From IMG/VR virus record IMGVR_UViG_3300034012_000717, positions 1-35,981 of that record: 35,981 bases of DNA; one strand, given 5' to 3'. The DNA is from a virus. The first letter of the stretch is position 1, and every line of letters starts with the position of its first letter. The position numbers and the translations under genes are program-made. This document shows, one piece after another, positions 4,356-14,784 of this stretch. The notes below the pieces were generated by a model that saw only the letters and a list, made by a program, of their open reading frames with translations, did not search any database and had not been told where the DNA came from.

Positions 4356-5140
4356 TGTCGGGCCTCCAGTGCCTTGGCCACTTCGTTCAGTGCAGCGAAC
4401 CAGTCATCACGGCTGAAACTGCCACGGCGGGTCTGCTCGGCCTTGATGGCGGCGTCGAGCTTGGTCTTCCATTCGCCCCATTTCGCACACTTGGCCAAAT
4501 CCGCACACTGCCGCCCGTCCACGGTTGCCTTCAGGTCTGCCAAGATGCGGTCGATGCTGCGGAGCTGACCCCCAACGCCGAATAGCTGCCCGGCTCCGTT
4601 TCGGTAGGCAGCAGCGAACTTGGCAGCGTTAGCAGCGTCTGCCGGTGCCATGTCGTAGGTCAACTGGCCGACGCCGTAGTCGTTCGGCACGATGTCCGGC
4701 TTGGGTTCCGGTTCCGGCTCAGGGTCCGGTGTCGGGTCCGGCTTAGGCGGGACTGGCTTGCCGCCGATGTCAAACTTAATCTCAGCGTCGTCGATGCCCT
4801 TGTCGGGGTCGAATACCGTCACCTCGACCACGTAGGCACCCGCACCAGCAAACAGGTAAACGTTATCGGCCAGCTTTTCCGGCTCGACACGGTTGCCGTT
4901 TTGCCTCGCCTTCACCCGCTGGAACTTGTAATCGCTTTTGACTTCCAGCAGCACGACATCCGAAACGCTGACATTGCTGTCGTCGCCGACCAAAATGCGG
5001 TTGCCCTGCACCTGCGGGTTAGTCACGCCCAGCAGTGCCTTCTTGCGGGTTACGGTTGTCTCGACCTGCCCGAACGCAGACGACGCCAGGCACAGCAGCA
5101 GCAATGCCGTAATGAAAAAGGCAGCGGATTTGTTACGCAT
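4352..5140 (-). CDS. Secreted protein: signal peptide, beta domain, Pro/Glu/Asp linker, helical tail
   Basis: A 262-aa protein. Residues 1-24 form a clear Sec signal peptide with AFG before the predicted cleavage. About 25-128 is a beta-rich Ig/cadherin-like region (YVVEVTVFDPDKGIDDAEI). A PxP-rich acidic linker of about 20 residues (PTPDPEPEPEPKPD) follows. The C-terminal 110 residues look helical. Such signal-Ig-linker proteins are common in Planctomycetota and in their phages, which supports that host group. The start forms TAATG with the previous stop and the end overlaps the papain-like gene, so the two products may act together outside the membrane. Function not recognised. Confidence 0.75.
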   Translation of the reverse strand: MRNKSAAFFITALLLLCLASSAFGQVETTVTRKKALLGVTNPQVQGNRILVGDDSNVSVSDVVLLEVKSDYKFQRVKARQNGNRVEPEKLADNVYLFAGAGAYVVEVTVFDPDKGIDDAEIKFDIGGKPVPPKPDPTPDPEPEPEPKPDIVPNDYGVGQLTYDMAPADAANAAKFAAAYRNGAGQLFGVGGQLRSIDRILADLKATVDGRQCADLAKCAKWGEWKTKLDAAIKAEQTRRGSFSRDDWFAALNEVAKALEARQ

Positions 5141-10877: not shown

Positions 10878-11729
10878 TTAAAATGCCACTTCACTCGGCA
10901 CGTCCGTGTCTTCCAGTTCGACGATCTCCATGTCGTCCTCCCGCTTCAGCCCATACGCCGGGATCAGCTCCGGCCAGTCGTTCTGCCATCGGCCCGTCTG
11001 ATAACACGCCGCCAACTCGCACAGTTTCCGTGCGTGGAACTGCCTCGCTGCCTTGCGATCTTCGGGGCCGTACTCACGCCGCAGCACCCTGTACGGGAAC
11101 TCAGTCTCGACTACCCAGAACACGAACGTCACCCGCTCCGCATCTCGCACCGACTCAAGGCCCGCCGTGTAATGTGCGTCCTGTAGCCAGTACCGAAACC
11201 GATCCGCAGTCCGCCCCCACTCCCACGGGTTGACCGTCGCCGTCACCTTCAAGTCGTGGCAAAAGATTCCGGCACTTGGCCCCTCGCACCACCAGTCCGG
11301 CTTGGCCCTGCACTTGAGTCCACTTGCTGCGTCGGTCCAGTAAATGGCCTGCTCCCGTGCCGCTGCCGACTCGATGCCCATTTCGGGGACGTACCGCCGC
11401 ACGCTTTCGATGATGGCCGCAATCCGCCCGAACTCCGCAGCCTTCACGTACACGATGCCAGGCGTCGCCGCTCGCAGCTCCGCCATCCGTTTGCCGTTGA
11501 TGGCTCCGTTCGATTGCAGGCAGTCGTCGGGGACAAGGCGGACGTGGTCTTCGAGCTGGCCACCTTCAAGCAGGACAGCATGGACAGTCGTGCCGACATC
11601 CATTGAGGCAGTCGATTCGCGGGCCGGTAGTTTGCGTTCGATGTAGCGGAGCCGAAATAACTCGCGGTCGGTGCAAAAGTCCGATAGCATCGACTTGCTG
11701 ACGTGGTCGTAGTCGTCGTGGTAGTTCAT
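10878..11729 (-). CDS. RecE-like PD-(D/E)XK exonuclease
   Basis: A 283-aa protein of the exonuclease VIII/YqaJ-like group. Visible elements are MDVGTTVHAVLLEG (His50), the RAKPDWW block with Asp145, the catalytic DLK (Asp159, Lys161) and a helix with WLQDAHYTAG near residue 182. The family degrades double-stranded DNA ends to feed single-strand annealing. The ribosome site AGGAG lies 6 bases before ATG. It lies between a DNA methyltransferase and a probable annealing or SSB-like partner, forming a recombination module with RusA further on. Confidence 0.85.
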   Translation of the reverse strand: MNYHDDYDHVSKSMLSDFCTDRELFRLRYIERKLPARESTASMDVGTTVHAVLLEGGQLEDHVRLVPDDCLQSNGAINGKRMAELRAATPGIVYVKAAEFGRIAAIIESVRRYVPEMGIESAAAREQAIYWTDAASGLKCRAKPDWWCEGPSAGIFCHDLKVTATVNPWEWGRTADRFRYWLQDAHYTAGLESVRDAERVTFVFWVVETEFPYRVLRREYGPEDRKAARQFHARKLCELAACYQTGRWQNDWPELIPAYGLKREDDMEIVELEDTDVPSEVAF

Positions 11730-11738
11730 TAGCTGCTC

Positions 11739-12653
11739 CTAGAAAAGTGACGGTTGATTCAACTTCGCTTCCTCATCGGCGAGGAACTTGCTGGCCCACT
11801 CAAAATAGGACTGCTTCAGTTCGACGCCGATAAACTTACGGCCAGTCTGGACGCTGACCACGCCTTCACTGCCGATGCCCGCGAACGGACTCAGCACGAC
11901 ATCGCCTTCGTTCGTCCACAGCTCCAAGCACCGCTCGATAACATCCAATTGCAGCGGGCAAATGTGCCGGTCGTCTGCTTCCTCTCTGGCCATGCGTCCA
12001 TTCAGCGTCCGGCTCTGGTTGATGTCCATCCAGACCGGGCTGGCGTACCGCTGCCAGACATCAATGCTCAAGTCGCCCTTGTTGTCGAACGTGGACTGGT
12101 CGCCGATGAACCGCTCGAACCGACCGCTGACTGGGCTTTCGTTGTCGCCGCCTTTGCGGAATGTGCAAACGTAGTCGGGGATTCCTTGGCGTGAACGGCA
12201 ACTGTCCTTTGTGATTTGCTTGTGCAACAGGCCGAGAGCCTTTGTCCGCTGCATCGCCAGCACCGGGTCTTTCCAAATGCAAACCTCGGAGTGGTAAACG
12301 AATCCGCTGGCCTGCATAGTGCGGATGATGTCGCCGCGAAAGTCACGGATGCCGATGTAGCCGTTGTTCTGAATCGTGCTGGGCAAGTTCATGCAATGGA
12401 CGCTGACCAGCCTGCCCGGTTTAATCAGCCGATAAAGCTGGTCCGACAGAAAGCGGTAGTGCGTGAAAAACTCCTCATCCGTCTCGCAGTTGCCCATGTC
12501 TCGCTCACTGTCGCTGTAGACGTATAGCGACGCAAACGGCGGACTGAACACGGAATAATCAATCGATTCGTCCGGCAGTCCTTGCAGCACCTCGCAGCAG
12601 TCGCCGCGAAACAGATGCCACCTCTCGCCTTTAGCCTGGTCTATCACTTGCAT
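11739..12653 (-). CDS. DNA methyltransferase (beta-class N6/N4)
   Basis: A 304-aa site-specific DNA methyltransferase. The catalytic motif IV is SPPF (residues 37-40) and the SAM-binding motif I, SPFAGIGSEG, is near residues 255-264, so the order IV-then-I marks the beta class. SPPF is typical of N4-cytosine enzymes but also of some N6-adenine ones. AAGGAG lies 8 bases before ATG, and the gene overlaps the helicase end by 10 bases. No restriction endonuclease partner is visible, suggesting phage self-protection rather than a restriction system. Recognition sequence unknown. Confidence 0.9.
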   Translation of the reverse strand: MQVIDQAKGERWHLFRGDCCEVLQGLPDESIDYSVFSPPFASLYVYSDSERDMGNCETDEEFFTHYRFLSDQLYRLIKPGRLVSVHCMNLPSTIQNNGYIGIRDFRGDIIRTMQASGFVYHSEVCIWKDPVLAMQRTKALGLLHKQITKDSCRSRQGIPDYVCTFRKGGDNESPVSGRFERFIGDQSTFDNKGDLSIDVWQRYASPVWMDINQSRTLNGRMAREEADDRHICPLQLDVIERCLELWTNEGDVVLSPFAGIGSEGVVSVQTGRKFIGVELKQSYFEWASKFLADEEAKLNQPSLF

Positions 12654-14596
12654 GCCACTGCTCCTTCAATAAAACTCGGAACCTGAATCGATACGCTTGG
12701 CCGATAACGCTGCTTGAGCATGTCACCGTTCCATTCGATGCCGTTACTGCAAGACATCGCCTGTGCCATCCCTGACTGCATAACTGCGTGGTCGCTTTCC
12801 TTGCGGGCCACTGCCGACTCAATCGCACTGTCGCTGTCTGCGATTACGATATGAATCTTGACCGGCTTTTTCTGGCCGAACCTCCACGAACGCCGGACTG
12901 CTTGGTAGTACGCCTCAAATGAATAACTCAGCCCGGCGAATATCTGCGTGTCGCAGTGCTGGAGATTTACACCAAATCCGAAAATGCTAGGTTTTGTAAT
13001 CAGTATTGGATGAAATGTATTTAATTGCGGTTTGCAGCAGTTCAATTGAGTCATTGAATCCGCCGATTGACGTGTTGCACTTTGTGCATAGCAAGCCACG
13101 GACTCTTCCAGTTTCGTGGCAGTGGTCAATATGCAATCGCTCGCCTCGCCTGTTGCTTGCTTTTGTTGTTCCGCAAATCGCACATCCTCCGTTCTGTCGC
13201 TCAAGAATTTCTGCGTAAATGACGCTGGTGATTCCGTATTTTCTGCAAAGTTGCTCGTGACGCTGTTCTCTCGTCCTTCTCTTTGCATATCCAATGCACT
13301 TGCTTCTGAACTCTGCGTCTGATGCGTACAAGGATCTCCGCTTAGCGTTGTTTTTTTCTGCTTGCTCTTTTGTTTTCTTAAACTTATCTGGATTCCTGCG
13401 TCTGTACTCTTCCATGTACTGCTTTCTTCGTTCTCTATTTTCTGACATCCATTTGGCTGCTGCTGCAATCTTTTTGGCTCTGTTTTTCCTGTGGTAATCT
13501 CGCTGGTACGTGTCGCTTTTTTGCATCGCATCATTCCTTTGCGATTAGGCTTGCTTGTTAATCCGCAAAACCATTCAAGTGCTTGATCCTTAAACTCCTC
13601 TGTATCGTCACCGCGAACCTCGACCGCATCCGGCAGATGCTTCCGCAGTTCGTCGGCCTCGTAATTCGTATCGCACCAAATCAGCACCGGGCCGCTGGTA
13701 GACTTGGCCAGTTCCGCCGCCCGTTTGCACCTGGCCTCATTCGTCAGCCGCTTTTCTTCGTGCATCGTCGTGGCACTGATGCCAGCGGTGTTGAACAGCA
13801 TGCCGCTCGGTGCGTTGTCGATTTCCGGCGTGACGTGGTGCCGCTCAATAATCATTTGCGGCAAGGTGTATCCAGCGTCCTCGCCGCCGATGTCCGATGG
13901 CTTGCTGATACAGACCGCCCACTGGCTGACCCACGACCAGAAGTCTCGCTCGGCATGGCCACGCAGCCTCCACTTACTGGTATCGCCGCTGTCGTGGACG
14001 AAGTACCGATTCAGCATGTCCACCGGCTCGCAGATGCCAAGGAACTCAGCGTGGTTGCCCAGTTCCATATGGTCATTCGGTGCTGGTGTCGCCGTGCAGG
14101 CCAGCCGGAATCGAGTCTGGCCGTAGCTCTCTTTCAGCAGTTTCCGCGTGACGCTGTTCATTCCTTTGAGAATTGACGATTCATCCAGCACAACGCCGCA
14201 GAACGTGGCCGGGTCGAACTTGTGCAGCTTCTCATAGTTAATCAGGTTAATGCCGTTAATGACTTCGTCCTGGCTGTCGGCCACAGTCACAGGCGAATCA
14301 ATCCCAAACTTCTCCGCCTCGCGTTTAGTCTGGCTGCGGACTCCGACCGGGCAATGGACCACGACCGGCAGGCCGCAGTGCTGATGAACCAGCCTTGCCC
14401 ATTCGAGTTGCTGGAGCGTCTTGCCCAGCCCGCATTCCTCGAACAGTGCCGCACGCCCTCGCTTAATTGCCCACTGCACCGCCCGCTTCTGCCAGTCAAA
14501 CAGATTCGGATTCAGCTTGTCCGTTCCGATGTCGAATCCGTATGCTTCGACTCGCCGCTGTTTCCGCTTGATGAACGCTTCGTAATCCGTGACCAT
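12644..14596 (-). CDS. SNF2/DEAD-like helicase with a 177-residue in-frame insertion
   Basis: A 650-aa helicase. Domain 1 has Walker A ECGLGKT (54-60), the DExx box LDESS (137-141) and TATPAPND (168-175). Domain 2 starts normally (GPVLIWCDTNYEADEL...) to ALEWFCGLTSKPNRK (to residue 353), then has about 177 polar, disorder-prone residues, and resumes at ILITKPSIFGFG (531) with the arginine finger block QAVRRSWRFGQ. The insert reads open but its other frame encodes an endonuclease VII. ATG at 14596 is preferred; the longer frame overlaps the small membrane gene almost fully. If the insert is kept, it splits helicase motifs IV and V. Activity in this state is uncertain. Confidence 0.8.
   Translation of the reverse strand: MVTDYEAFIKRKQRRVEAYGFDIGTDKLNPNLFDWQKRAVQWAIKRGRAALFEECGLGKTLQQLEWARLVHQHCGLPVVVHCPVGVRSQTKREAEKFGIDSPVTVADSQDEVINGINLINYEKLHKFDPATFCGVVLDESSILKGMNSVTRKLLKESYGQTRFRLACTATPAPNDHMELGNHAEFLGICEPVDMLNRYFVHDSGDTSKWRLRGHAERDFWSWVSQWAVCISKPSDIGGEDAGYTLPQMIIERHHVTPEIDNAPSGMLFNTAGISATTMHEEKRLTNEARCKRAAELAKSTSGPVLIWCDTNYEADELRKHLPDAVEVRGDDTEEFKDQALEWFCGLTSKPNRKGMMRCKKATRTSEITTGKTEPKRLQQQPNGCQKIENEESSTWKSTDAGIQISLRKQKSKQKKTTLSGDPCTHQTQSSEASALDMQREGRENSVTSNFAENTESPASFTQKFLSDRTEDVRFAEQQKQATGEASDCILTTATKLEESVACYAQSATRQSADSMTQLNCCKPQLNTFHPILITKPSIFGFGVNLQHCDTQIFAGLSYSFEAYYQAVRRSWRFGQKKPVKIHIVIADSDSAIESAVARKESDHAVMQSGMAQAMSCSNGIEWNGDMLKQRYRPSVSIQVPSFIEGAVACK
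12987..13526 (-). CDS. Endonuclease VII-like HNH homing endonuclease nested in the helicase gene
   Basis: A 179-aa protein. Residues 1-95 are a strongly basic helical region (KKIAAAAKWMSENRERRKQY, EEYRRRNPDKFKKTKEQAEK), likely DNA-binding. Residues 105-165 form the recombination endonuclease VII domain: CAICG, then HIDHCHETGRVRGLLCTKCN, i.e. two CxxC knuckles around an H-x-D-H-C-H core. AAAGGA lies 8 bases before ATG. The frame differs from that of the helicase, and its last six codons and stop use helicase sequence (ATTACAAAACCTAG). The AT-rich composition differs from neighbours, consistent with a mobile gene. Confidence 0.88.
   Translation of the reverse strand: MQKSDTYQRDYHRKNRAKKIAAAAKWMSENRERRKQYMEEYRRRNPDKFKKTKEQAEKNNAKRRSLYASDAEFRSKCIGYAKRRTREQRHEQLCRKYGITSVIYAEILERQNGGCAICGTTKASNRRGERLHIDHCHETGRVRGLLCTKCNTSIGGFNDSIELLQTAIKYISSNTDYKT
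13007..13537 (-). mobile_element. Homing-endonuclease insertion within the helicase gene
   Basis: Comparing the helicase with its family pattern (WF-x...RxLxTKPxIxGFG) places an insert of about 531 bases between codon 353 (AAA) and codon 531 (ATA). It is an exact multiple of three, has no stop in the helicase frame and carries an HNH/endonuclease VII gene in another frame. About 11 bases precede the nuclease ATG and include its GGA ribosome site, so there is no room for a group I intron. The exact ends are estimated. Confidence 0.6.
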
Positions 14597-14784
14597 TCCA
14601 CCAGTCCCCATATAGCCAGCCCACAATAAACCGCCTGCAATGCCGCCTGTGCATAGATGCCGTGCATGATGTCGACCACGCACCACGCCGCATTGGTAAC
14701 CGTCCAGATTGCAAAGCACTCCTTCCGGTGTTTGATATTCAGCACCGTCGCCAGCAGCGATGCCGATGCCAGTAGCCACATCAT
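14512..14784 (-). CDS. Small membrane protein (PnuC-like short form)
   Basis: A 90-aa protein with three hydrophobic segments: WLLASASLLATVLNI, CFAIWTVTNAAWCVVDIMHG and AALQAVYCGLAIWGLVEW. The pattern NIKHRKECFAIWTVTNAAW...YAQAALQAVYCGLAI matches short phage proteins related to half of the PnuC nicotinamide-riboside transporter fold. ATG at 14784 is chosen because it overlaps the previous stop as ATGA. The C-terminal tail overlaps the helicase start by about 85 bases. It could influence NAD-precursor uptake, but transport is unproven. Confidence 0.65.
   Translation of the reverse strand: MMWLLASASLLATVLNIKHRKECFAIWTVTNAAWCVVDIMHGIYAQAALQAVYCGLAIWGLVEWSRITKRSSSGNSGESKHTDSTSERTS

Follow-up and report, generated by a model that had tools for sequence, protein, structure and literature searches.

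The window, by which we mean the whole stretch of DNA analysed (an IMG/VR virus record of 35,981 bases), carries on its minus strand a helicase gene within which a second gene lies out of frame. The mechanically called helicase ORF, 12644-14779(-), begins at a GTG at 14779 and is open along its whole length of 711 aa; the start is most likely the ATG at 14596, giving a protein of 650 aa. Pfam matched the protein to SNF2-rel_dom (2.1e-6) and Helicase_C (9.4e-4, the latter under its gathering score), it falls in phrog_62, and the Foldseek matches were SNF2 ATPases, indicating an SNF2-like host fold. The features of the locus are as follows.

12644..14596, minus strand: SNF2-type (SF2) helicase coding sequence, 650 aa including the insert, assigned from Pfam, phrog_62, Foldseek and the empty homologues L002-L012; start probable
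12987..13526, minus strand: Endonuclease VII-family (PF02945, beta-beta-alpha-Me) nuclease coding sequence, 179 aa, intact, out of frame within the helicase
13007..13537, minus strand: helicase-frame reading of the insert, without a stop in its 177 codons; polar or charged residues, Pro and Gly make up 71%, and disorder is predicted
13535..13540, minus strand: Shine-Dalgarno-like AAAGGA, 8 nt 5' of the nuclease ATG, from direct reading
12987..12989, minus strand: nuclease stop TAG, made from the helicase codons CCT-AGC (Pro-Ser of 'TKPS', motif V)
13538..13604, minus strand: co-converted 5' flank, departing from the empty allele L002, which matches the window exactly over the preceding 1,069 nt
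12963..13006, minus strand: co-converted 3' flank, departing from L002 and common to the window and L001

A first-pass annotation of this DNA had claimed that about 531 bases encoding an endonuclease VII in another frame interrupt the helicase, that the helicase frame nevertheless stays open through all 177 codons, and that the nuclease borrows its stop from the helicase. Each of these points was borne out by the ORF layout and reading, the TAG at 12987-12989 using the Pro-Ser codons of 'TKPS'; across the family, nuclease stops at or near the 3' junction repeatedly overlap host codons. The nuclease starts at offset +2 relative to the helicase frame and was matched to Pfam Endonuclease_7 at 3.9e-24 (84.8 bits against a gathering score of 23.6) and to phrog_2914. 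T4 endonuclease VII is among its PDB profile matches, and the closest solved structures are T4 endonuclease VII and Hpy99I. Eight residues, C115, C118, D134, H135, H137, C147, C150 and N151, comprising the zinc cysteines and the metal-binding/catalytic-type DHxH...N, are invariant in 18/18 aligned copies.

Alignment with the uninterrupted relatives L002-L012 (67-94% identical; L002-L008 89-94%) showed that the insert has no counterpart in any of them and placed its ends at about 13007 and 13537. The window exceeds L002 by a net 183 codons, of which approximately 177 are the insert and the remainder divergent flank. The same insert is found in L001, an independent metagenome contig, and sequenced isolates carry the same arrangement, which is therefore not an assembly error. 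At its 3' end the helicase gene overlaps by 10 nt an N6/N4 DNA methylase gene (11739-12653), an adjacency also seen in Gordonia and Mycobacterium phages, and the methylase gene is adjoined by a PD-(D/E)XK nuclease-like gene (DUF3799; 10878-11729).

Two surveys extended the search for further in-frame insertions of this nuclease. In the nuclease-anchored survey of 222 EndoVII genes from IMG/VR and GTDB genomes, 20 were flanked by helicase homology on both sides, with the host frame open in all 20. The helicase-anchored survey (268 loci) added L290, L291 and L386, all three with an open host frame. In total, 20 different helicase alleles proved to carry an insert, which occupies one of two sites. 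At site IV the insert precedes 'PWLIWCxLNxEQ' (e.g. L058, L082, L122, L126 and L205), and at site V it precedes '(V/I)L(V/I)(S/T)KPxIFGFG' (the window, L128, L131, L133, L144, L208 and L386); both sites lie in loops preceding a strand of the second RecA-like lobe. The nuclease tree was only weakly resolved as to whether site IV and site V nucleases form separate clades. A further EndoVII-like nuclease (L096:3753-4571) is nested in a different host, a dATP/dGTP diphosphohydrolase-type gene whose frame is open and which is matched by PF18909 in two stretches. Among phage isolates, Gordonia phages Malisha and Squiddly carry the insert in genes labelled only 'DNA helicase'.

Some loci from these surveys stand apart. 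L131 has a TAA at 4644-4646 in the host helicase, 3' of the insert and shortly before motif VI, which is either an inactivated allele or a sequencing error. At L141:3809-4738 two tandem EndoVII genes follow a fragment of this helicase of about 55 residues. The match to 'internal virion protein B' of Yersinia phage WX2 (H38) proved to be an ordinary free-standing nuclease gene bearing that label, not a nested one, and the Moonbeam-type HNH beside a helicase is a separate adjoining gene. EndoVII genes with short or one-sided overlaps (L085, L168, L195, L223, L230 and others) lack two-sided helicase homology and were not counted.

The absence of stops in the host frame was evaluated against a null model in which the nuclease protein was held fixed and its synonymous codons were redrawn at the GC3 of the gene. 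An earlier estimate of about eight stops by chance (177 x 3/64) is too high, because it ignores that the insert DNA encodes the nuclease; with the nuclease coding fixed, 3.9 host-frame stops are expected in the window and none is observed (P(0) ~0.007). For the 21 distinct full-length inserts (the 20 distinct helicase alleles plus L096), 102.3 stops were expected and 0 observed, with a sum of log10 P of -53.8. As a control, 155 free-standing EndoVII genes had 690 stops against 758 expected, with 7 of the 155 stop-free, so that the control is adequate if imperfect, the null predicting slightly too many stops in free-standing genes. Taken crudely, the rate of 7/155 raised to the power of a dozen independent inserts is negligible. 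Permuting each gene's own codons gave weaker single-gene P values, since codon composition is itself shaped.

Furthermore, the open frame tracks the frame of the host. Fifteen distinct alleles use one relative frame and two, L129 and L135, the other, and the frame that is not the host's contains stops: in L129 and L135 the host's relative frame is open and the usual one has 6 stops. In free-standing genes the relative frame usual for nested copies has about half as many stops as the other (690 vs 1,210), which possibly accounts for the preference of most nested nucleases for that frame. The window alone is suggestive, and the family-wide stop avoidance is decisive.

Selection on the two proteins was compared between L205 and L126, which both bear the insert and whose synonymous divergence exceeds 1, with a dS of about 1.1 in the helicase flanks while the insert is present. 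The dN/dS was 0.07 for the nuclease and 0.06 for the helicase flanks. The insert read in the helicase frame gave 1.84 with no stops, and 0.95-1.84 across comparisons. The value of 1.84 signifies no detectable constraint rather than positive selection, because synonymous changes in the nuclease hit helicase codon position 2. The alignments therefore indicate purifying selection on the nuclease and the helicase flanks and no constraint on the amino acids of the loop: selection keeps two functional proteins and bars stops and frameshifts from the loop but is indifferent to its sequence. A loop sequence that is free and yet without stops fits translation through a tolerated loop; constraint would be expected for an intein and stops would be irrelevant for introns or bypassing, so that the observed pattern is unlike either. 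Consistent with the disordered loop proposed in the first-pass annotation, AlphaFold modelled the lobes of the 650-aa helicase mostly at pLDDT 80-97 and insert residues 357-527 at about 29. The same DNA read as the nuclease gave a mean pLDDT of 90.

One locus, L451:3-1944, has a nuclease of the same family at site IV, but its helicase gene is in two pieces: a TAA closes the N-half, AGGAG gives the nuclease its own Shine-Dalgarno sequence, and the ATG of the C-half overlaps the nuclease stop (ATGA). This truly split allele, along with the split-gene precedents of mobE in Aeh1 nrdA and mobA in T4 gene 60 (PMC2988022), speaks for the possibility that the helicase is made as two chains, or that translation hops over the insert in the manner of T4 gene 60, its openness being incidental. 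We judge this very unlikely, as neither a split gene nor bypassing needs a stop-free insert in phase, yet 20/20 of the other full-length helicase alleles have one, and we recognised in the window no C-half start like the one in L451. Translational bypassing, which had been put forward earlier as an alternative, is accordingly disfavoured by the family-wide stop avoidance. A second variant, L370:1419-2909, likely represents a degenerating copy, in which the nuclease is truncated to about 75 aa and the host helicase frame is still open, a state that read-through translation of the host protein would predict.

Removal of the loop after translation, by an unusual intein or a protease, would likewise demand a stop-free, in-phase insert. 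Such removal nevertheless appears highly improbable given a host-frame sequence that is unconstrained over the whole dN/dS range above and predicted to be disordered. Pfam reported no Hint domain in the five host proteins scanned, and the insert junctions showed no consistent pattern of intein junction residues, so that an intein, excluded at the outset, remains disfavoured. Introns often house homing nucleases, and Rfam would miss a ribozyme that is novel or very small, so an undescribed self-splicing intron bearing the nuclease ORF was also considered. It is scarcely credible here: the nuclease ORF takes up all but about a dozen nucleotides of the insert, so that there is no space for a separate ribozyme and, as had been argued before, no room for a group I intron; Rfam gave no match at E<=1 in window positions 12300-14200 and none at the gathering score in 18 related loci; and an intron does not require a stop-free exon frame. 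Chance, that is, a nuclease newly inserted in a dispensable helicase whose frame happened to be open, could be entertained for the window alone (P ~0.007, with 7/155 free-standing relatives also stop-free in that frame) but is refuted at the family level by recurrence in about 20 alleles, where 102 stops are expected and 0 seen, and by helicase flanks at dN/dS 0.06 over a dS of about 1.1, although single alleles could still be inactive.

That the overprinted nuclease gene is mobile is indicated by the sequences around it. Compared with the empty allele L002, the window is identical over helicase nt 107-1175; around the insert, on either side, identity drops to 50-60% before recovering. Compared with L001, it is about 93% identical generally, with only 3 differences over nt 1135-1838 spanning the insert. 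Malisha and Squiddly have in common an 842-nt tract with 1 difference, at a dS of 0.40 in the helicase flanks. Homing with co-conversion leaves such flank signatures (PMC2988022), and the sharp tracts (window vs L002; Malisha/Squiddly) are best read as traces of recent homing, with the cleavage of empty alleles inferred. The empty rhizobial alleles are usually more conserved downstream of the site than upstream, and the insert-bearing L126 shows the reversed pattern (96.2% upstream vs 70.1% downstream). A tree of the helicase N-terminal domain required at least 19 gains or losses of the insert. Both marks of a homing element, presence/absence polymorphism of the insert and co-conversion of its flanks, are thus seen here.

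At both sites the nested nucleases are often preceded by a leader (GRTG-NTAAACTGGCARCATG) resembling the conserved helicase GMNWQHC codons in another frame.

L122:2890-2917, L130:3870-3896, L290:2380-2406, L126:3880-3902 and L386:2546-2568: conserved leader before the nested nuclease start

The TGG (Trp) codon of GMNWQHC is lost in 21/22 insert-bearing helicases compared with 37/137 empty ones (Fisher 6.6e-10; median p 0.016 in phylogenetically independent pairs). We raise only tentatively, and with considerable doubt, the idea of an element with its own control and immunity, in which the nuclease would recognise the GMNWQHC codons, carriers would hold a resistant co-converted version and the leader would be an operator like that of I-TevI; the loss of Trp could also be explained by hitchhiking of donor exon sequence. 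Two empty helicases, L303:1501-2865 and L304:1501-2865, have Phe in place of this Trp, and the downstream part of L303 is unusually divergent, resembling insert-bearing alleles; the two are possibly past carriers.

Taken together, our results lead us to propose, at a probability of roughly 0.86, that an EndoVII-family homing gene spreads among phage helicase genes without splicing, overprinted on an open host frame. The nuclease frame would overlie that of the helicase, and ribosomes translating the helicase would read straight through the insert, a translation that we infer. In the second RecA-like lobe the protein would thereby gain about 177 disordered residues, looping out between a helix and the strand of motif V. 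Separate translation of the nuclease would run from an internal start codon to the stop codon borrowed from the helicase. This step is also an inference, and its mode is unsettled, since most nested starts lack a clear Shine-Dalgarno sequence: Shine-Dalgarno-like cores lie 5' of 7/21 against a background of 17%, a modest enrichment with weak conservation. In a cell shared by a carrier phage and a phage with an empty helicase allele, the nuclease would cut the empty allele, and repair would copy the insert with its flanks; cleavage is again inferred, from sequence alone. Selection for helicase function would then purge stops and frameshifts from the insert and leave the loop amino acids free. 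The nesting, the stop avoidance, the purifying selection on both proteins and the co-conversion are shown by the sequences themselves. The suggestion that a mobile gene is tolerated in frame as a disordered loop thus draws support from about 20 alleles, from stop avoidance that tracks the host frame, from dN/dS, from co-conversion and from the predicted disorder; that a working helicase keeps the loop is an inference.

The natural alleles, about 20 in number, together with the empty, split and truncated forms, allow measurements on overlapping genes and on disordered loops that originate de novo. A direct laboratory test could draw on sequenced Gordonia phages, among which Malisha and Squiddly are carriers and Holliday has an empty allele. 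There is also a warning for annotation, as such nucleases are concealed beneath 'DNA helicase' labels in current records.

Insertion in an essential gene without splicing, which the first-pass annotation had suggested, is of a kind already described. In the ShiLan domain, an out-of-frame HNH nuclease lies in actinobacteriophage DNA methylases (Arsenault, Gosselin and Gogarten 2025; PMC11855218). As here, a phage gene of DNA metabolism contains an out-of-frame nuclease and itself remains free of stops, no intron or intein was found, the distribution is sporadic and the host-frame product is loop-like (PMC11855218). In ShiLan gp65 the HNH lies at relative offset +2, as in the window, and gp65 has no significant match to the helicase. 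The window satisfies the definition of this kind (out-of-frame nuclease, open host frame and insert-free homologues), whereas the families differ, ShiLan pairing an HNH nuclease with a methylase and the present inserts pairing Endonuclease VII (PF02945) with an SNF2-type helicase or a dGTP-diphosphohydrolase-type gene. We found no synonymous-codon null, dN/dS, split or truncated forms in that work (PMC11855218), and no paper on an Endonuclease VII nested out of frame, our coverage of the literature being partial. The present study thus adds as new another nuclease family, helicase and diphosphohydrolase genes as hosts, approximately 20 alleles, tests for stop avoidance and for selection, the homing evidence, and the split and truncated forms.

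The intron-less homing nucleases mobE (Aeromonas phage Aeh1 nrdA) and mobA (T4 gene 60) are also inserted in phage genes (PMC2988022), and like the present nuclease they occupy a critical region of the host gene without an intron. They split the host gene into separate coding regions, whereas here a single open frame is kept, L451 being the split counterpart. Free-standing phage EndoVII-like nucleases (phrog_2914, PF02945; T4 endonuclease VII) belong to the same family, with the conserved Cys4/DHxH/N, but do not lie inside another gene and have normal stop numbers in their other frames. Inteins and group I introns with homing endonucleases likewise home and co-convert flanking exon DNA; unlike them, the present insert has no RNA- or protein-level splicing element that we could find. 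Our results thus support a third route, besides introns and inteins, by which a mobile gene can reside inside an important gene, namely overprinting, in which the host protein would carry the translated second frame.
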